Below are positions 54,425-64,000 of a stretch of 64,000 nt of DNA, in pieces (the first letter of the stretch is position 1; every line of letters begins with the position of its first letter). Origin of the DNA: Phreatobacter aquaticus. GTDB lineage: Bacteria; Pseudomonadota; Alphaproteobacteria; Rhizobiales; Phreatobacteraceae. The stretch spans positions 1,326,828-1,390,827 of the forward strand of contig NZ_CP039865.1 in the NCBI RefSeq assembly GCF_005160265.1, in the 5' to 3' direction. The notes under the pieces were generated by a model. It was given only the letters and a program-made list of their open reading frames with translations, searched no databases and was not told the origin of the DNA. Made by a program: the position numbers and the translations under genes.

Positions 54425-56083
54425 ATGTATCGCTACGATGAGTTCGACCAGGCCTTCGTCCAGGAGCGTGTCGCCGAGTTCTCGGACCAGGTGGCGCGGC
54501 GTCTCTCGGGCGAGCTGACCGAGGACCAGTTCAAGCCGCTCCGGCTGATGAACGGCGTCTATCTCCAGCTCCACGCCTACATGCTGCGGATTGCCATTCC
54601 CTACGGCACGCTGTCGTCCAGGCAGATGCGCCGGCTGGCCCATATCGGGCGGACCTATGACCGCGACTACGGTCATTTCACCACGCGGCAGAACCTTCAG
54701 TTCAACTGGATCAAGCTGTCGGACGTGCCGGCGATCCTGAACGAACTGGCCGAGGTGGAGATGCATGCCATCCAGACCTCGGGCAATTGCATCCGCAACG
54801 TCACGGCGGATCATTTCGCGGGCGCTGCCGCCGACGAGGTCGCCGATCCCCGGCCCTATGCCGAGATTCTCCGGCAATGGTCGTCCCTGCACCCGGAATT
54901 TGCCTACCTGCCGCGCAAGTTCAAGCTGGCGGTGACCGGCTCGCCCAACGACCGCGCGGCCATTCAGGTCCATGACATCGGCCTGGAGGTGAAGCGCAAC
55001 GCAGCCGGCGAACTGGGCTTCTCGGTCTGGGTCGGCGGCGGCCAGGGCCGCACCCCGATGATCGCGAAGAAGGTCAGGGATTTCCTGCCAGAAGCCGATC
55101 TCTTGGCCTATTGCGAGGCGATCCTGCGCGTCTACAACCTCGATGGCCGGCGCGACAACAAGTACAAGGCGCGCATCAAGATCCTGGTCCACGAGACGGG
55201 CGAGGAGGAGATCAAGCGGCAGATCGAGGCCGAATTCGCCGCTCTCGGCAAGGCCAGCCTGACGCTTCCCGAAGCGGAAGTGGCCCGCATCGCTGCCTAT
55301 TTTGCCCCTCCGACGCTTGAGCGCCTGCCGGCCCGCTCCGATGTGCTGGAGCGCGCCAAGGCCGCGGATCCGGAGCTCGCCCGCTTCCTCTCCCGCAATC
55401 TCCATGCTCACAAGACACCCGGCTACAGCATCGTTACGGTGTCACTCAAGCCCGTCGGCCTGCCGCCTGGTGACGCGATCTCCTGCCAAATGGATGCCAT
55501 CGCCGACATCGCCGAGCGCTATTCCGCCGACGAGATCCGGGTGAGCCACGAGCAGAACCTCGTCCTGCCCCATGTCCGGCTCGACGATATCCCGGCGGTC
55601 TATGCGGCGCTGAAGCACGCAGGCCTTGCCACTCCCAATGCCGGCTTCATCACCGACATCATCGCCTGTCCCGGCCTCGACTATTGCGCGCTCGCCAATG
55701 CCCGCTCGATTCCCGTCGCCCAGCGCATTTCCGAGCGCTTCGCCTCCATCGAGCGGCAGACCGATATCGGCGATCTCAAGCTGAAGATTTCCGGCTGCAT
55801 CAATGCCTGCGGCCACCACCATGTCGGCCATATCGGCATTCTCGGTGTCGACCGGAAGGGCGAGGAATTCTACCAGATCACGCTTGGCGGCTCGGGTGAC
55901 GAGAGCTGCTCGATCGGCGAGATCGTCGGCCGCGGCTTCTCCTCCGACGAGGTGGTCGATGCCGTCGAGACCATCGTCGACACCTATCTGAAGATCCGCA
56001 CGGCGCCCGAGGAAAGCTTCCTCACCGCCTATCGCCGGGTCGGCGAGGCGCCGTTCCGCGACGCCCTCTATGCCGAGGCCTGA
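54425..56083 (+). CDS. cysI: Assimilatory sulfite (nitrite/sulfite) reductase, siroheme type
   Basis: Ferredoxin-type or NADPH-linked siroheme enzyme reducing sulfite to sulfide, 552 residues. Motifs include GRTYDRDYGHFTTRQNLQFN, VEMHAIQTSGNCIRNVTADH and the cluster-siroheme binding residues ACPGLDYCALANARS (CX5C near 416) with KISGCINACGHHHVGHIG (CX3C near 458). Sequence alone cannot fully separate sulfite from nitrite reductase; the DUF2849-DUF934 flanks strongly support sulfite. It is followed four bases later by the DUF934 gene. Confidence 0.95.
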   Translation: MYRYDEFDQAFVQERVAEFSDQVARRLSGELTEDQFKPLRLMNGVYLQLHAYMLRIAIPYGTLSSRQMRRLAHIGRTYDRDYGHFTTRQNLQFNWIKLSDVPAILNELAEVEMHAIQTSGNCIRNVTADHFAGAAADEVADPRPYAEILRQWSSLHPEFAYLPRKFKLAVTGSPNDRAAIQVHDIGLEVKRNAAGELGFSVWVGGGQGRTPMIAKKVRDFLPEADLLAYCEAILRVYNLDGRRDNKYKARIKILVHETGEEEIKRQIEAEFAALGKASLTLPEAEVARIAAYFAPPTLERLPARSDVLERAKAADPELARFLSRNLHAHKTPGYSIVTVSLKPVGLPPGDAISCQMDAIADIAERYSADEIRVSHEQNLVLPHVRLDDIPAVYAALKHAGLATPNAGFITDIIACPGLDYCALANARSIPVAQRISERFASIERQTDIGDLKLKISGCINACGHHHVGHIGILGVDRKGEEFYQITLGGSGDESCSIGEIVGRGFSSDEVVDAVETIVDTYLKIRTAPEESFLTAYRRVGEAPFRDALYAEA

Positions 56084-56087
56084 GACC

Positions 56088-56612
56088 ATGGCGCTCTATC
56101 GCAACGGCGCCTTCGTCGCCGAGGACTGGACCTTCCCAGCCGAGGACGAGCCGATCCCCGGCTCCGGCGCAGTCGCCCTGCCGAAGGCGCGCCTGCTGGC
56201 GGAATGGCCGGCGCTCGCCAGCCGCAACGGCCCGGCGGGGCTCGTCCTGGCCTCCGGTGAGAAGGTCGATGGTCTGGAGGAGATCCTGCCGCGCCTCGCC
56301 CTCGTGCGCATGGTGATCCCGCGCTATTCCGACGGCCGGCTCTATTCGCAGGCGCGCCTGCTGCGCGAGCGCCATCGCTTCACCGGCGAGATCCGCGCTG
56401 CCGGCGACATCCTGCGCGACCAGATCGTGTTCCTGGCCCGTGTCGGCTTCGACGCCTTCGAGATCGTCCACGAGGGCACGATCAAGGCGCTCGCCGAGGG
56501 CAGGATCGTCAGCGTCGGGCACTTCTACCAGCCGGCAGCGCGCGAAGTCTCAGAAGCCCAACCGGGCGCGCGACCCTGGCTGCGCCAGCGCAAGGCCGGC
56601 ACAGTTCTGTAG
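56088..56612 (+). CDS. DUF934 domain protein of the sulfite reductase operon
   Basis: A 174-residue protein with ALYRNGAFVAEDWTF, LPRLALVRMVIPRYSDGRLY and SQARLLRERHRFTGEIRAAG, typical of DUF934, which is almost always next to cysI. The role is not established, possibly electron transfer or assembly. ATG at 56088 with GAG upstream was chosen. cysH, which usually comes next, is absent; the operon ends here against the convergent MBL gene, seven bases away. Confidence 0.9.
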   Translation: MALYRNGAFVAEDWTFPAEDEPIPGSGAVALPKARLLAEWPALASRNGPAGLVLASGEKVDGLEEILPRLALVRMVIPRYSDGRLYSQARLLRERHRFTGEIRAAGDILRDQIVFLARVGFDAFEIVHEGTIKALAEGRIVSVGHFYQPAAREVSEAQPGARPWLRQRKAGTVL

Positions 56613-56619
56613 GGTTGGA

Positions 56620-57675
56620 TCAACCCTGCGCGAAACGGCGCACGCCGTCGCGGCCGTCGATCGAGACGAACGACCCGTCCACCTCCAGCCGGCGCAGATG
56701 GGCCAGTGTCTCGGCCACTGCGAGAAAGGCGTGGCCCGCCGCCATGGCGCGCGGGAACAGCACATGGGCCGCCTCGTAGCCGGACATCGGCCGGTCGACG
56801 CCCGCGCGCAACATGTCGAGGCGTCCTGCGTGATGGTCGCGCAAGGCGTCGAGACGGCGGTGGAGGCCGCGGAACGGCGTGCCGTGCGAGGGCAGGACCA
56901 GCGTATCCTCGGGCAGCGTCCGAAAGCGCTCCAGAGACACGAGATAGTCGCCCAGCGGATCGGCCTTCGGCTCGCCCGGGAAGATGCCGATCACCGGCGT
57001 GATATGCGAGAGGATCTGGTCGCCGGCGATCAGCACGCGGCTCTCTGCCGAATAGAACGAGGCGTGCTCCTCGGCATGGCCGCCGGCGGTCATCACCTGC
57101 CAGTCGCGCCCGCCCATGCGCAGCGTGCGTCCGTCGATCAGCCGCTCGATTTCGCTCGGCTGGGGGCCGAGTGCCTTGGCAAACATCGCGCGATCATCGG
57201 CCAGCCGCTTGATCAGGTCGGGATGGCAGCCGTTCTGGGCGAGGAAGCGCTGCACATGCGGCCGGTGCGGCTGCTGCTGGTCGGCATAGCGCAGCTTCGC
57301 CGAGAGCCATTCCACCAGCGTGGAGGCAAAGGGCATGTCGAACCGGTCGACCAGATGGCCGGCAAGGCCGATATGGTCGGTGTGACCGTGGGTGGCGACG
57401 AGCTTCACCAGGGGACGGCCGAGCGGGCCCTTCACAAGGCGCTGCCACAGGGCGCGCATGTCAGGGGATTCGACGCCGGCATCCACCGCGGTCCAGCCAG
57501 CCGTTTCGGGCAGGAACCAGACATTGACGTGGTTCAGCACGAAGGGCAGCGGCATACGCGCCCAATGCAGGCCTTCGGTGATCTCGACCACTTCACCGGC
57601 TGCTGGCGTCGCGACGCTGGTGAAGTCGAGATTGCTTTCCGGCCTTGGCGACCGGACGACCTGATCCTGGCTCAT
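56620..57675 (-). CDS. MBL-fold metallo-hydrolase
   Basis: A 351-residue metallo-beta-lactamase-fold hydrolase. The metal site is VATHGHTDHIGLAGH, with the later ligands in MTAGGHAEEHASFY, LIAGDQIL and LPSHGTPFRGL. The layout fits glyoxalase-II-like or lactonase-like members with an N-terminal domain. Its start overlaps the upstream ABC transporter's stop by four bases. The gene is last in the run fusion-ABC-MBL. A hydrolytic step on a small metabolite or its detoxification is inference. Confidence 0.88.
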   Translation of the reverse strand: MSQDQVVRSPRPESNLDFTSVATPAAGEVVEITEGLHWARMPLPFVLNHVNVWFLPETAGWTAVDAGVESPDMRALWQRLVKGPLGRPLVKLVATHGHTDHIGLAGHLVDRFDMPFASTLVEWLSAKLRYADQQQPHRPHVQRFLAQNGCHPDLIKRLADDRAMFAKALGPQPSEIERLIDGRTLRMGGRDWQVMTAGGHAEEHASFYSAESRVLIAGDQILSHITPVIGIFPGEPKADPLGDYLVSLERFRTLPEDTLVLPSHGTPFRGLHRRLDALRDHHAGRLDMLRAGVDRPMSGYEAAHVLFPRAMAAGHAFLAVAETLAHLRRLEVDGSFVSIDGRDGVRRFAQG

Positions 57676-59507
57676 TCGTCCTCGTCTGCCTCAGCCTCGG
57701 CCTCGGGGCGGCGGCTCTGGCGTTGGCGCGACCACATATTGGCATAGAGGCCGCCCTGGGCGACCAGCGCGGAATGCGTGCCTGTCTCCACGATATGGCC
57801 GTGGTCGAGCACGATGATCCGGTCGGCGGTGACCACGCTGCCGAGCCGGTGGGTGACGCTGACGACGGTCCGGGTCTCGGCGATCTTCGACAGGGTCTCG
57901 TTGAGCTTGTGCTCGGTTGCCGCATCGAGCGCGCTGGTCGCCTCGTCCAGCACTAGGACGGCCGGATTGCGCACGAGCGCGCGGGCGATCGCCACACGCT
58001 GGCGTTGGCCGCCGGAGAGCTGGCCGCCGCGCTCGCCCACCATCGTGTCATAGCCTTCGGGCAGCTCCATGATGAAGTCATGCACCTCGGCCTGGCGGGC
58101 GGCGTCGTGGATCTCCTCCATCGTCGCCTGCGGATAGGCCATGCGGATGTTCTCGGCGATGGTGGTGTTGAACAGGAAGCTTTCCTGGAACACGACCGCC
58201 ATCTGCTCGCGCAGCGAGGCCTGGCTGACGGAGCGGATGTCGACGCCGTCGATGGCGACGCGGCCCTCGCCCGGATCGTAGAAGCGCATCAGCAGATTGA
58301 GGAACGTGCTCTTGCCCGAGCCCGACGGTCCGACAATTCCGAGGAACGAGCCCTTGGGCACGGTGACCGACAGGCCCTCCGTGCGGAAGCTGGAGCCGGG
58401 ATAGTTGAAGGCGACGTTCTCGAACGTGATTTCGCGCGCGAAGGGCTGCAGCTCCTTGGCATCCGGCGGATCGACCATGGTCGGCTTGACCTGCAGCATG
58501 TCGTTGAGATGGTGGATCGAGCCGGCGGCCTGGGCCAGCGTCGGCACATATTGCGTGACGTTGGTCAGCGCATAACCCATCGACAGGAACACGCCCTCGA
58601 ACGCGATGATCGTGCCGACCGTGATCCGGTCGGTGAACGCCCAGTAGGAGCCGAGCGCGAAGACGATGATGTGGACGACATAGAGACCGGTCTGCGCCGT
58701 GCGCTCGACCAGGGCGCTGGCGAAATTGGTCCGCCGGGCAATGCCGAACCAGGTGCCATTGACCAGCGAGAAGGCATGGCGGGCGCGGTCGGCCATGCCG
58801 AAGGCCTTGATCACCGGCTGCGCCGCGACATTCTCCTGCACGGCGCCGAGCAGATGGCCCTCGGTCTGGCGTTTCTCATAGGCATGGTTGAACGCCTTGC
58901 GGGCGAAGATGCGCGGCCACCACAGGATCAGCGGGAAGATCAATGCACCAATCAGCCCGAGCCAGATGTCGAACATGAACATCAGGATGGTGGCGTAGAT
59001 CACCTCCAGGAAGGGCATGATGAACAGCGGCACGATGCCGACGAGGCCTGTCTCCACCGCCACCAGATCGCCCGAGAAGCGCGACAGCACGGTCCCCGTC
59101 GGCGTGGTGTGGAAGAACGGCATGGACATCGACTGCACATGGTCGAACAGGTGCTGGCGGATGTCCTTCACGACGGACGAGAACACCCGCGTGTACATGT
59201 AGTCGGCAACCAGCGCGACCATCGACACGGTGATCGCCGCGATCCCCATGAAGGCGATGGAGCGGACCAGCGCTTCCCATTCCTTTTTTATCAGGCCTTC
59301 GTCGATCAGATATTGGGTGACCAGGGGAAACGAGAAGTTGAGGGCGGCTTCCGTCAGCACCAGCAGCATCAGGATCGCGAAGAAGCCCTTGTAGGGCTTG
59401 CAGAACGGCAGGACGAAAGCGATCAGCGCCTTGACGTCGGCAGCACTGACGTCTTCCGCCTCTTCCTCGTCGTCGAGGTACTCGTCTACGGGCGCTTCTT
59501 TGCTCAT
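57672..59507 (-). CDS. ABC exporter with fused permease and ATPase domains
   Basis: A 611-residue half-transporter that would function as a dimer. Six membrane helices lie in about residues 30-310 (KGFFAILMLLVLTEAALNF, YATILMFMFDIWLGLIGALI, GLYVVHIIVFALGSYW). The ATPase has Walker A GPSGSGKST, signature QLSGGQRQRVAIARAL, Walker B VLVLDEATSALD and the H-loop in VSVTHRLGS. The N-terminus is acidic. This is the MsbA/multidrug-lipid exporter type. The start is ATG at 59505-59507; a longer reading through tandem repeats is less likely. It follows the fusion gene. Confidence 0.93.
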   Translation of the reverse strand: MSKEAPVDEYLDDEEEAEDVSAADVKALIAFVLPFCKPYKGFFAILMLLVLTEAALNFSFPLVTQYLIDEGLIKKEWEALVRSIAFMGIAAITVSMVALVADYMYTRVFSSVVKDIRQHLFDHVQSMSMPFFHTTPTGTVLSRFSGDLVAVETGLVGIVPLFIMPFLEVIYATILMFMFDIWLGLIGALIFPLILWWPRIFARKAFNHAYEKRQTEGHLLGAVQENVAAQPVIKAFGMADRARHAFSLVNGTWFGIARRTNFASALVERTAQTGLYVVHIIVFALGSYWAFTDRITVGTIIAFEGVFLSMGYALTNVTQYVPTLAQAAGSIHHLNDMLQVKPTMVDPPDAKELQPFAREITFENVAFNYPGSSFRTEGLSVTVPKGSFLGIVGPSGSGKSTFLNLLMRFYDPGEGRVAIDGVDIRSVSQASLREQMAVVFQESFLFNTTIAENIRMAYPQATMEEIHDAARQAEVHDFIMELPEGYDTMVGERGGQLSGGQRQRVAIARALVRNPAVLVLDEATSALDAATEHKLNETLSKIAETRTVVSVTHRLGSVVTADRIIVLDHGHIVETGTHSALVAQGGLYANMWSRQRQSRRPEAEAEADEDE

Positions 59508-59531
59508 GGGTTCGCGGGCGATCCGATCGGG

Positions 59532-59594
59532 CAAGGCTTGGTCAGGCAAGGCTTGTCTTGGTCAGCAAGGCTTGGCTTGGTCAGGCAAGACATG
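59532..59594. repeat. Short tandem repeat between the fusion gene and the ABC exporter
   Basis: Units CAAGGCTTGGTCAGG (59532-59546), CAAGGCTTGTCTTGGTCAG (59547-59565), CAAGGCTTGGCTTGGTCAGG (59566-59585) and a partial CAAGACATG (59586-59594). Unit lengths are 15, 19, 20 and 9, so units differ by small internal insertions. The tract is the leader of the ABC gene on the minus strand. Confidence 0.8.
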
Positions 59595-59697
59595 CCGGAA
59601 CGGGGGCTCCGTCAACCCCCGGCGGCCTAGGGCGGCTCGGAATAACGAAATGGCCGGACTTATCCGGCCATTTCAGCGGAGATTGCGGCAAGAGGTC

Positions 59698-61857
59698 TTA
59701 GCCGGCGATGGGCTTCTTGACCTTGCTGGTCGGGCCCTTCTGGCGGCCGGCCATCAGCTTGTCGATCCACTTCTGGGCGTCGGGCTTGGCGTAGAAGCAA
59801 TAGCGCATGGTCTCCATGTCCGGATACCACGGGAAATCGCCCTCATTGGCGTCGCACTCGATCTTCCAGGCCTTCTTCAGGATCTTCTGGTCATGGACGG
59901 CCGGGCGCCAGCCGTGGCGCTGGAAGCGCTCCGACCATTGCCAAGTGCTCTCCAGCGTCAGCACGCCGTCGAACACGTCGTGATACTCGATCACTTCGCG
60001 GGTCATGTCGGCGGTGATGCCGCCGAAGAAGATGCCGATGCGGGTGACGCGGTAGAGTTCCTGGATCGCCTTGTCGATCAGCTCTTCCGGCACGTAGCAG
60101 AGGCAGGTGTCGTAGATGACGTCGAAGGAATTGTCCTCGAACGGCAGGTTGGTGACGTCACCGAGCAGGTTGCGATGCAGCCATTCCGGGGGCGTCTGGG
60201 CATGGACGTGGCGCGAGTTCTCGATGCCCCAGGCGTCGATGCCGATATCGGCGAAGCACTTCAGCGTCAGGCCCGAGGCCGAGCCGACATCGAGGAGCTT
60301 GTAGGGCGCCTTGATACCGAAGATGCACTCGTAGAGGTCGGCATTGTACTGCTCGTCGAAATACTCGCGGAAGCTCTCCTCGTAGGAGAGGCCGACGGCA
60401 TATTCGTCGTGATAGTCGTCGGTGAGCGTCGATTCGACGAAGCCCTCCTCGACCACGCCCTTCTGCTTCTCGAGATCCGCCTTCTTGCGAGCGCCGGCAT
60501 AGGCCGCGCCGCGCAGCTTGCCCATCAGCATGTCGACGACGAAATTCGCCGAGTCATAGGCGCCGTTGACGGTCGAATCGAACAGGTAGTCGCCGACCAG
60601 ATAGAGGTTCGGCAGAACCTTGGCGTCCGGCTGGTGGCGCTCGCGCAGTTCCGGCGCGGGATTGCCGCCCGGCAGGCCCGAGATCGTGCCGATCCAGCGC
60701 TGGACCTTGGCCTCGACGAACTGCTTCTTCGCCGGTCCGATGAGGTCGGAGGGCAGCGAATCCAGTGCGAGCTGGGTCAGCGTCTCGTCGTCGAGATTGG
60801 ACAAGGCCATGGCCTGGCTCGCCGGGATCAGCCAGCCGAGCACACCGTGCTTGGAGGGATGCCGCGCCGTCTCGTCATAGATGCAGCAGCCGCCGAAGGC
60901 GTCGCTCATGATGTAGCTGCCCTGGAAATGCTCGTTCCAGAACGGCTTTTTGAACAGCACGGTGACGCGCAGGTAATGCGCGGCATTGTCGTAGCGGGCC
61001 TGGTGCTTCTGGATCGCCTCGCGGGCCGCGCGGCCCTCGAACTCGATCTGGCTGACCCAGTAATTCGGCACGGCGACCACGACATGGTCGAACTCGTGGA
61101 CCTCGTTCTTGCCCTTGCGGCGCACCGTCAGATTGTAGGTGCCGCCCTCGTTGCGGGCGATCTTGGCGACCCGCGAATTGAGCATGACCTTGCCCGAGAC
61201 GCGCTCGGCCAGGCCCTCGATCAGCTTCTCGTTGCCGCCGGCGATCGAATAGAGCCGGAGGTACTTCGGATCGTCCATCAGGACGTTCTTCAGGCCGTTC
61301 AGCGCGTTGGTCAGCTGGGATTCGGTCGCGACATCGGAGCGCGCGGCCACCTCGATATATTTGCGGGCAGCCTCGTCGGGGATCTCGTCCAGCACCTCGC
61401 GGAAGGACTTTCCAGCCCAGGGGTGCTTGTTGTCGTCGCCCGAATAGCCCTCGTAATACTCGTCGGGCGAGCAGAGCTCATGGCACTTGGCGTGGAAGGC
61501 GTCGATCGCCTTCACCGTCGCCTCGCCGAAATGCTTCTTGATGTCGCGCTTGGTGTTGAGGATCGCGTCGCCGATGATCACGCCCTTGCCGTCCATCGGC
61601 ACGACGTCCAGCTCCATCACCTCGGTGATGATGCGCTTCAGCGGGTCGGGCCCGAAATGCGAGTAGTCGTAATATTCGGCGACGCCGCGCTCGAACAGCG
61701 TATTGCCCTTCTCGAACGTGTCGGTGACGATCTTGCCGCCGAGACGGCCGGACGCTTCGAAAATGGTCGCCTGAAACAGGCCGTCGCAGAACCGGTCGAG
61801 CAGGTAGTTGGTGAACAGGCCGCCCGGCCCGCCACCGACGATCGCGACACGAGTCAT
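59698..61857 (-). CDS. Flavin amine oxidase fused to a SAM methyltransferase
   Basis: A 719-residue protein with two enzyme domains. Residues 1-430 form a flavin amine-oxidase-like domain: FAD motif RVAIVGGGPGGLFTNYLL, EASGRLGGKI, the FAD-contact LPNLYLVGDYLFDSTVNGAY near 410. A linker (about 435-510) leads to a class I methyltransferase: motif I YKLLDVGSASGLTLKCF near 522, GIENSRHVH, and DVTNLPFEDNSFDVIYDTCL. Both nucleotide-binding motifs look intact. The substrate is unknown; oxidation and methylation of one molecule is inference. It begins a minus-strand run followed by the ABC exporter and MBL hydrolase, suggesting a small biosynthetic or detoxification unit. The 268-base gap upstream (61858-62125) has no gene. 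Confidence 0.82.
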   Translation of the reverse strand: MTRVAIVGGGPGGLFTNYLLDRFCDGLFQATIFEASGRLGGKIVTDTFEKGNTLFERGVAEYYDYSHFGPDPLKRIITEVMELDVVPMDGKGVIIGDAILNTKRDIKKHFGEATVKAIDAFHAKCHELCSPDEYYEGYSGDDNKHPWAGKSFREVLDEIPDEAARKYIEVAARSDVATESQLTNALNGLKNVLMDDPKYLRLYSIAGGNEKLIEGLAERVSGKVMLNSRVAKIARNEGGTYNLTVRRKGKNEVHEFDHVVVAVPNYWVSQIEFEGRAAREAIQKHQARYDNAAHYLRVTVLFKKPFWNEHFQGSYIMSDAFGGCCIYDETARHPSKHGVLGWLIPASQAMALSNLDDETLTQLALDSLPSDLIGPAKKQFVEAKVQRWIGTISGLPGGNPAPELRERHQPDAKVLPNLYLVGDYLFDSTVNGAYDSANFVVDMLMGKLRGAAYAGARKKADLEKQKGVVEEGFVESTLTDDYHDEYAVGLSYEESFREYFDEQYNADLYECIFGIKAPYKLLDVGSASGLTLKCFADIGIDAWGIENSRHVHAQTPPEWLHRNLLGDVTNLPFEDNSFDVIYDTCLCYVPEELIDKAIQELYRVTRIGIFFGGITADMTREVIEYHDVFDGVLTLESTWQWSERFQRHGWRPAVHDQKILKKAWKIECDANEGDFPWYPDMETMRYCFYAKPDAQKWIDKLMAGRQKGPTSKVKKPIAG

Positions 61858-62125
61858 TATCGGTCTTTCGTCTTCATGCCGAAGCTCCCCGTCTCATGCG
61901 GAGGGCCCGGCTGCCATAGGGTTAAGTTCCGATGTGGCTATAGCCGGGACATGTCGGAGAATAAAGGGACGTTCGCCAAAATCCGGCGAAACGGTTACCC
62001 CCCGTCAGCCCGCACCGCCACCTCGGAAAATGCGAGGACTATTTCGTGCCTACCGGCGCCTGAACGCTCGGTGAACCGATTGGCACGGCATCGCTTTTCG
62101 ATCCTATGGCGCGGACGGGGTCTTC

Positions 62126-63508
62126 CTATTTCAGCACCGAGGGCAGCCAGAGCGCGATGCCTGGCCAGTACATCAGGATGCCGATGGCGGCGATATAGAC
62201 GATCATGAAGGGCATGACGCCGGAGAACACATCCGATATCGGTCCGCCGTCCTTGCGCATGCCCTGCAGCACATAGAGGACCGTGCCGTCCGGTGGCGAG
62301 ATCAGCGCGATCTCCACCAGCATGGTCACGATGACGCCGAACCAGATCGGATCGTAGCCGAGCGCCACCACGACGGGGAAGATCACGGGGATCGTCGTCA
62401 CGATCATGGAGAAGCCCTCCATGAACGTGCCGAGCGCCAGGTAGAAGCCGATGATCATCAGCATGATCGCCCAGGGCGGCAGCGGCATCTCGGAGACGAG
62501 CTTGGCCAGCGCCTGCGGCACGCCGAGATTGGTGAAGACGAAGTTCAGCACATAGGCGCCGAACAGGATGAGCCCGATCATCGCCGTGTTGCGGGCGGTC
62601 GCCTCGGCGCTGTCATTGAGCATCTTCCAGGACAGCTTGCCGCCAAGTCCCGCCAGCACGATCGAGGCGACGACGCCCAGCGCCGCCGATTCCGTCGGGG
62701 TCGCAAGGCCGCCATAAATCGTGCCGAGTACAATGAAGATGAGGAGGGCCGTCGGCGCGAGGTCGACAAGGCTCATCATCTTCTCGCGCATCGAATAGCG
62801 CGGCGCATCGGGGTCGCGCGGTGCGGCGGTCCTGGCCTTGAGGAGGATCACCAGCGTGAACAGGACCACGACCAGGATGCTCGGGCCGACGGCGGCATTG
62901 TAGAGCGCGCCGACCGATGTCTCGGTGATCAGGCCGTAGATGATGAAGGTGATGCCTGGCGGAATGAGATTGCCGAGCGCGCCGCCTGCGGCGAGCGATC
63001 CCAGCACCATTTTCGGGTCATAGGCGCGGCCCTTGAAGAAGGGGAGCGCCACCGAGCCCATGGTGGCGGCGGTGGCCACCGACGAGCCGGAGATCGCCGA
63101 GAACACGGCGGAGGAGGCGATGTTGGTGTGCAGGAGTCCGCCCGGAACGCGCGACAGCCAGACATTCAGGGTCCGGTAGAGCCGGTCGGAGAGGCCGGCG
63201 CGCAGGAGGATCTCGCCCATCAGCAGGAACAGCGGAACGGCGATCAGCACGAAGGACGAGGACGGATTCCAGATCGTCTGCCCGAGGAAATTCCAGAAGG
63301 CGCGGCCGTCGGAAAAGGCATAGCCGACGATCAGGCCGAGCACGCCAAGGGCCGCGCCGACATAGATGCCCATGCCGAAGAACACGGCGAACAGGCCGAC
63401 CAGCAGCAGGATCTCGCCGATCAGATGGGAGGCAACGGTGACCGCGCCGGTGAGCGAGAGGCCGACGAGCGTTGCCGCAAGGACCAGCAGGAAGACGATG
63501 GCGATCAC
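62126..63508 (-). CDS. dctM: TRAP transporter large permease (DctM)
   Basis: The 460-residue membrane subunit of a tripartite ATP-independent transporter. Ten or more helices and family motifs MGEILLRAGLSDRLYRTLNV, SSAVFSAISGSSVATAATMG, GGALGNLIPPGITFIIYGLI, TPTESAALGVV and ALISPPDGTVLYVLQGM. It overlaps the small permease gene's stop by four bases (ATGA). The substrate is probably a carboxylate or related solute; the DctP binding protein that would indicate it is outside the window. Confidence 0.95.
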   Translation of the reverse strand: MIAIVFLLVLAATLVGLSLTGAVTVASHLIGEILLLVGLFAVFFGMGIYVGAALGVLGLIVGYAFSDGRAFWNFLGQTIWNPSSSFVLIAVPLFLLMGEILLRAGLSDRLYRTLNVWLSRVPGGLLHTNIASSAVFSAISGSSVATAATMGSVALPFFKGRAYDPKMVLGSLAAGGALGNLIPPGITFIIYGLITETSVGALYNAAVGPSILVVVLFTLVILLKARTAAPRDPDAPRYSMREKMMSLVDLAPTALLIFIVLGTIYGGLATPTESAALGVVASIVLAGLGGKLSWKMLNDSAEATARNTAMIGLILFGAYVLNFVFTNLGVPQALAKLVSEMPLPPWAIMLMIIGFYLALGTFMEGFSMIVTTIPVIFPVVVALGYDPIWFGVIVTMLVEIALISPPDGTVLYVLQGMRKDGGPISDVFSGVMPFMIVYIAAIGILMYWPGIALWLPSVLK

Positions 63509-63999
63509 GAGCGGGGCTCCTTGGCGGGGGCGGTGGCGGCCGCGAACTCGGCGGCGGGTTCCATGCCGACCGCTTCCAGCGTCTCGGCGACCTCTTCCGC
63601 ATAGGTGCGGGTGTGCAGCATGGCTTCGGATTCCGCGCCGCGGCCGGCGAGGATCAGCAGCAGGTTCTCCACGAACATCAGCACGATCAGCAGCATCATC
63701 ACGCAGATACCGAAGGCCCAGAGGCCCTGGGGAATGGCGAGCGGGGTGCGCAGGATGGAGATGTCGGTTGCGCCGAACAGCAGCGATTCATCGACCAGCA
63801 TGTAGGAGCCATAGGCGAGGTAGCCCATGAACACCCCAAGGAAGCCCAGGCTCATCAGGTGCAGCCAATAGCGGATCGTGTCGGGGAACTTGTTGACCAG
63901 GATGTCGATGCGCACATGGGCGCGCATCGTCAGAGTGTGGGAGAGGCCCCAGGCGATGCCGAAGGCCAGCGCATAGCCGGACAGCTCCGTCGTCGCCTG
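63505..63999 (-). CDS. dctQ: TRAP transporter small permease (DctQ), partial at window end
   Basis: The frame is open to the window edge, so the N-terminus is missing; 164 codons are visible. Segments TTELSGYALAFGIAWGLSHT, VRIDILVNKFP, LGFLGVFMGYLAYGSYML and GICVMMLLIVLMFVENLLLI show membrane helices 2-4 of DctQ. The conserved WGLSHTLTMRAHVRID block is intact. It overlaps dctM. The extension past 63927, where an internal ATG could be taken as start, matches the family and shows that ATG is not the true start. Confidence 0.9.
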   Translation of the reverse strand, partial: QATTELSGYALAFGIAWGLSHTLTMRAHVRIDILVNKFPDTIRYWLHLMSLGFLGVFMGYLAYGSYMLVDESLLFGATDISILRTPLAIPQGLWAFGICVMMLLIVLMFVENLLLILAGRGAESEAMLHTRTYAEEVAETLEAVGMEPAAEFAAATAPAKEPRS

Positions 64000-64000
64000 G

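Follow-up and report, generated by a model that had tools for sequence, protein, structure and literature searches.

Freshwater Phreatobacter carries a single polypeptide chain composed of a flavin oxidase followed by a methyltransferase. Its gene lies in the window, by which we mean the whole 64,000-nucleotide stretch of Phreatobacter aquaticus DNA analyzed here, beside genes for an ABC exporter and an MBL-fold hydrolase (Table 1). The original prediction described an intact 719-residue frame with an N-terminal FAD motif and the SAM motif LLDVGSASG, followed on the same strand by an ABC exporter and an MBL hydrolase joined by an ATGA overlap. Both descriptions were confirmed, the frame on the minus strand at the coordinates listed and the two neighbors by their Pfam domains and the overlap itself.

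Table 1. Features of the fusion locus and genes of the type B partner (window coordinates, except where a locus name precedes the positions)
Feature	Position	Strand	Basis or remarks
Fused FAD oxidase–SAM methyltransferase, 719 aa	59698..61857	-	ORF list, Pfam, genome searches
Oxidase part, residues ~1-445	60523..61857	-	GGGPGG 8-13, Arg297, GDYLFDSTVNG 422-432
Methyltransferase part, residues ~482-692	59782..60414	-	Motif I LLDVGSASG 521-529, Glu546 invariant
12-bp perfect GC-rich hairpin, just past the fusion stop	59647..59674	-	Terminator-like, weak T tail
ABCB-type exporter half-transporter, 611 aa from ATG 59507	57672..59507	-	PF00664 + PF00005
MBL-fold hydrolase	56620..57675	-	Pfam (PF00753); ATGA overlap with exporter at 57672-57675
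Type B partner	L040:10312-11154
Type B partner	L041:11057-11908
Type B partner	L083:11002-11838
Type B partner	L038:7169-8062
Type B partner, second copy	L038:5296-6201

Each half of the fusion has Pfam matches above the cut-off, namely NAD_binding_8 (residues 6-59) and Amino_oxidase (residues 156-438, E 2.8e-30) in the oxidase part, and Methyltransf_11 (residues 522-608, E 2.7e-10) as well as Methyltransf_25 in the methyltransferase part. The chain scored 106.4 bits against PF01593, for which the Pfam gathering cut-off is 19.8, and matched no NCBIfam model at cut-off. AlphaFold models of the fusion reached mean pLDDT values of 35.4 and 39.8 from two shallow alignments (9 sequences, sharing 88-94% identity with the first one). 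A 936-residue open frame runs antisense to the fusion on the plus strand (window positions 59398-62208) and is likely a high-GC shadow frame, not a gene.

The fusion is present as a single copy in its own genome of 4,974,952 bases (one match at E 0.001). Other PF01593 proteins of this genome reached at most 25 bits against a profile of the fusion oxidase, compared with 762 bits for the window protein, whose own sequence is included in that profile. They include the paralogue L106 (25.0 bits) and the amine oxidase L110 (16.8 bits), the latter adjoining what we take to be a DUF1365-like protein, an arrangement presumably reminiscent of oxidases linked to cyclopropane synthases.

The exporter combines ABC_membrane (PF00664) and ABC_tran (PF00005) in one chain, an architecture common to the half exporters MsbA, Sav1866, and ABCB1/B4; the ORF list offers TTG at 59549 as an alternative start. 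It fell below the NCBIfam cut-off in the best 25 of 188 matched families and is therefore assigned to none of those 25 named subfamilies.

Comparison with known enzymes

The oxidase half belongs to the same domain family, and has the same FAD-binding motif, as putrescine oxidase, MAO, L-amino-acid oxidase, and protoporphyrinogen oxidase (superfamily PF01593), and its best relatives of solved structure by profile are putrescine oxidase and MAO-A, at only ~50 bits. The segment GDYLFDSTVNG is presumably flavin-binding. Fused FAD and SAM domains also occur in the tRNA-modifying enzyme MnmC, in which the methyltransferase comes first and a DAO-type FAD domain second. The fusion has the reverse order, and the window protein has an Amino_oxidase match with no DAO match, so that membership in the MnmC family was rejected. 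In one relative (L040) the DAO score narrowly exceeds its cut-off (30.9 vs 27.9), the Amino_oxidase match being stronger.

Closer in domain order are the cyclopropane synthases of cotton and Sterculia, in which an N-terminal FAD oxidase domain and a C-terminal S-AdoMet-dependent domain share one chain; in the cotton work, the function of the oxidase domain is given as unknown, and its full removal cuts product by ~70%, leaving ~30% (PMC3132707). This common order raises the alternative that the fusion is a lipid-methylating enzyme of the same kind, its flavin domain supporting the methyltransferase, with the exporter acting as a lipid flippase and nothing being secreted. ABCB4, a phosphatidylcholine translocator, is indeed one of the proteins of solved structure that match the exporter best in sequence, but such ABCB matches are not substrate-specific. 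We consider the alternative somewhat unlikely for two further reasons. The C-terminal domain of the plant enzymes is CMAS (PF02353), whereas that of the fusion is Methyltransf_11/25, and the partner genes differ as well; all seven places in the own genome that match PF02353 lie away from this locus, and membership among the CMAS-type cyclopropane synthases was rejected on these grounds. In addition, the DUF1365-adjoining oxidase L110 is distant from the fusion in the oxidase profile, scoring below L106.

Searches of the literature returned no description of the fusion or of its neighborhood by title or abstract start among the papers listed, and the family is apparently unstudied. An origin in phages or plasmids was rejected: the fusion had no match in the phage collection and no relatives in viral contigs, and the plasmid search returned seven Pseudomonas plasmids with matches to the methyltransferase domain at only 13% coverage. 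A PHROGs search gave no matches. A role in defense was rejected for both genes, the PADLOC matches of the fusion being weak and partial only, and those of the exporter (mad3 at 116 bits and mad8 at 41, with the best stretches inside the ATPase part) being read as generic ABC similarity.

Conservation and selection of the fusion

The fusion was found in all 12 Phreatobacter genomes, the own genome included, the other 11 sequences being 88-91% identical to it, and in 2 of the 49 other genomes covered by the same search (at E 1e-20). Counting the own genome, matches occurred in 4 of 385 genomes of the class and 11 of 398 of the phylum, and a family profile detected the fusion in 33 of the 397 order genomes and, in family f35, in 71 of 198. 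The distribution is therefore patchy, 127 of the 198 f35 genomes being without the fusion. Some profile matches in the order and in f35 report one internal stop, which we read as the terminal stop, and the frame runs to its end in the loci where frames were called. The two-domain order is conserved in relatives, each match being one chain except in G045 and in G1247, where the match starts at a contig end. The G045 gene (L039:8019-10078) is split near residue 348 into two frames that overlap, with the adjoining exporter frame open. Intact unfused relatives were not seen at the thresholds of these genome searches; single-domain relatives weaker than those thresholds were sought in the own genome.

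A maximum likelihood tree of 31 fusions, from which the broken locus of G045 and matches of 600 aa or fewer were excluded, contained three well supported groups: the f35/f42 sequences, Phreatobacter together with G829 and G1044, and a set of four (G060, G1065, G152, and G351) that we call type B after the partner gene described below. The tree was midpoint-rooted for drawing only, and its deep joins may be false because long branches meet there, as the program warned.

In the same 31 sequences Gly8, Gly10, Gly13, Glu34, and Asp423 of the oxidase part and Gly525, Gly529, and Glu546 of the methyltransferase part are invariant, as are Cys125, Cys325, His285, and His408. Position 297 is arginine throughout and aligns with a lysine of L-amino-acid oxidase (LAAO) and putrescine oxidase. 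In amine oxidases this lysine, located near flavin N5, is catalytic, and the fusion thus lacks a defining residue of a catalytic amine oxidase. The window protein has the residues expected of a class I SAM methyltransferase (D523, G525, G529, and E546), whereas the motif-I acid Asp523 is kept in 14 of the 31 fusions (the 12 Phreatobacter, G829, and G1044) and replaced in the other 17, by V or I in the f35/f42 clade (13) and by His in type B (4). Asp567 is kept in 16 of 31.

The invariant arginine and the uneven retention of the two aspartates would fit a chain in which one domain is non-catalytic, either because the flavin domain has a structural or sensory role or because the methyltransferase is a SAM-binding regulatory module, leaving a single reaction. 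We regard this as unlikely given that the presumed cofactor-site residues are kept in both domains, that the window protein has a canonical motif I, and that purifying selection acts on both domains. In Phreatobacter (66 pairs, 12 sequences) the median dN/dS was 0.18 for the oxidase and 0.08 for the methyltransferase, the latter being the more constrained half in this genus; in f35 (55 pairs, 11 sequences) the medians were 0.09 and 0.12, respectively. We infer that both halves have been kept by selection in both lineages, and that the fusion is no chance product based on this selection and on its presence in all 11 other Phreatobacter genomes.

Partner genes of the fusion

The link between the fusion and the exporter is our strongest result. 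An exporter orthologue (E 1e-105) was found in 29 of 397 genomes of the order, all of them among the 33 genomes with the fusion, and in all 29 it lies directly downstream of the fusion on the same strand, with 171-475 bases between the matched ends. The hypergeometric chance of this overlap is 4e-40 on the assumption of independent genomes; as the genomes are not independent, the linkage is fairly counted as two dissimilar chromosomal contexts. The exporter list used in the tree analysis was restricted to matches above 400 bits.

The first context is that of Phreatobacter, in which, among the genes called, the exporter orthologue comes immediately after the fusion in 12 of 12 loci, with 78-83% identity between the window sequence and the other 11. 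All 12 also have the TRAP transporter gene DctM upstream of the fusion (window positions 62126-63508, minus strand), accompanied in the window by a frame resembling its small partner; DctM had no match in the first-viewed f35/f42 stretches. The second context is that of f35 and f42. G045 aside, 13 such loci were viewed first, and in each the next gene after the fusion is an exporter sharing 41-43% identity with that of the window, with rpoC on the other side of the fusion and rpsG or fusA beyond the exporter, one or two genes intervening in some loci on the rpoC side and other genes in some on the far side. Another 14 f35 loci, none of them from genus g609, all repeat the order rpoC–fusion–exporter, and 12 of these have rpsG or fusA beyond the exporter (not L125 and L129). 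Altogether, exporter-linked fusions (type A) are found downstream of rpoC in 12 of 13 fusion-bearing f35 genera sampled. The names rpoB, rpoC, rpsG, and fusA are provisional assignments made by inspection of the sequences. A position downstream of rpoC and mostly ahead of rpsG/fusA (e.g., L042, L082, and L122-L135) is unusual for a specialized gene pair.

The orthologue stands apart from other ABC proteins. In four exporter-linked genomes outside Phreatobacter that were checked (G1063, G045, G1061, and G781) the linked exporter scored 504-517 bits, and no other ABC protein in the 14 genomes of this search exceeded 315 bits. It was absent from the four type B genomes, from G829 and G1044, and from three controls (nothing above 305 bits). 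G829 and G1044 are 84% and 89% complete, respectively; the 576 bases between the fusion and the contig end in G829 hold an opposite-direction frame and no exporter, and only ~360 bases follow the fusion in G1044. Since the four type B genomes lack an orthologue, export by this exporter is not universal to the fusion.

Type B fusions are instead followed directly by a gene for a protein of ~280 residues, which occupied the place of the exporter in eight of eight loci viewed (G060, G152, G351, G1065, and four of the five matching genomes of g609, a genus of f35; the fifth, G1215, was outside this view). G060 carries two copies. When 11 genomes were searched with a profile of this partner, the four of type B, and no others, gave a match. 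By eye, the protein ends in a hydrophobic segment, as might also be expected if the fusion were a lipid-methylating enzyme of the plant cyclopropane synthase kind. No Pfam family suits it: at a limit of E 10, five partner sequences together yielded just three hits (E 0.04-0.09), each from a single sequence, and a likeness to RMD1/DUF155 is therefore unsupported. Both partners together were found in none of the loci viewed, and a weak ABC match in L120 (86 bits, 29%), ~5 kb away, falls far below the exporter orthologue. Among the 71 fusion-bearing f35 genomes, the neighbors of 31 were viewed, 27 having the exporter and 4 the type B partner.

Conservation of the three-gene neighborhood, which the original prediction had offered as a check, extends to the exporter (29 of 29) and not to the MBL hydrolase. 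Of the 12 Phreatobacter loci, only 3 (the window, L018, and L036) have the hydrolase gene next to the exporter, and no match to it occurred in 14 f35/f42 stretches or in 18 further f35 stretches; the hydrolase was rejected as a member of the unit and is accessory.

The claim that the fusion heads an operon is doubtful. Nine of the 12 Phreatobacter loci have a perfect stem of 9-12 bp past the fusion stop, each equaled in no more than 3 of 200 dinucleotide shuffles, and in L019, L022, and L023 the perfect stem of 6-7 pairs is not unusual, a longer imperfect stem folding there. The folding energy of the first 90 bases stands out in 6 of the 12 (z below -2), and T-rich tails occur in some loci only, those of L020 and L037 being best and that of the window poor. 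A terminator scan did not list the hairpin, a promoter scan of window positions 56500-62300 found nothing, and Rfam had no matches in 56000-64000. Outside Phreatobacter a stem of this kind is present in 3 of 14 loci (L043, L047, and L084; at most 6 of 200 shuffles), and 14 of the 17 genomes with a linked exporter have a promoter-like element, TTGCCG-N17-TAGRAT, ahead of the exporter (not G1049, G1061, and G1063), this pattern being descriptive and not blind in that it was set after inspection of the intergenic sequences. These hairpins and promoter-like elements argue against one transcript. In G1063 the exporter frame overlaps the fusion if translation is taken to begin at the first available start codon, making co-transcription plausible there. 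Between the exporter start and the hairpin of the window (59530-59594) lie three imperfect 26-nt direct repeats at a spacing of 19-20, which are not obvious in the intergenic sequences of relatives.

Probable separate transcription, and the location of the f35 and f42 loci in one syntenic region downstream of rpoC, would suit an exporter that is a mere co-inherited neighbor, the pair sharing a conserved chromosomal place and no joint function. This we consider quite improbable, as the linkage persists at 41-44% exporter identity in the very different Phreatobacter context with TRAP genes upstream, and as none of the 397 genomes has the exporter orthologue without the fusion.

Proposed function and significance

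It is quite possible, if a little short of probable in our estimation, that the fusion is a bifunctional tailoring enzyme combining oxidation and methylation, whose product is moved by a dedicated ABCB-type partner. The N-terminal flavin domain would oxidize (dehydrogenate) a substrate, and the C-terminal SAM-dependent domain would methylate the same or a linked intermediate. The exporter may have evolved as a dedicated partner of the fusion, and would move the product, or a lipid or peptide bearing it, across the inner membrane. The nature of the partner, an ABCB exporter or else a C-terminally hydrophobic protein, favors a hydrophobic or membrane-associated substrate.

More broadly, and more tentatively, the fusions may represent an undescribed flavin–SAM family of this alphaproteobacterial order and some neighbors that makes a membrane-delivered metabolite, the partner being an ABCB exporter in type A and a new, C-terminally anchored membrane protein in type B.

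The recurrence of fusion and exporter together suggests an exported or membrane-bound product. Should the fusion prove to resemble the plant cyclopropane synthases, it would provide a bacterial system for the role of a flavin domain beside a SAM-dependent domain, a question left open in the cotton work (PMC3132707). The retention of the fusion in all 12 Phreatobacter genomes and in 71 of the 198 sampled from f35, with no function found in the literature searched, points to an overlooked metabolite or envelope modification.
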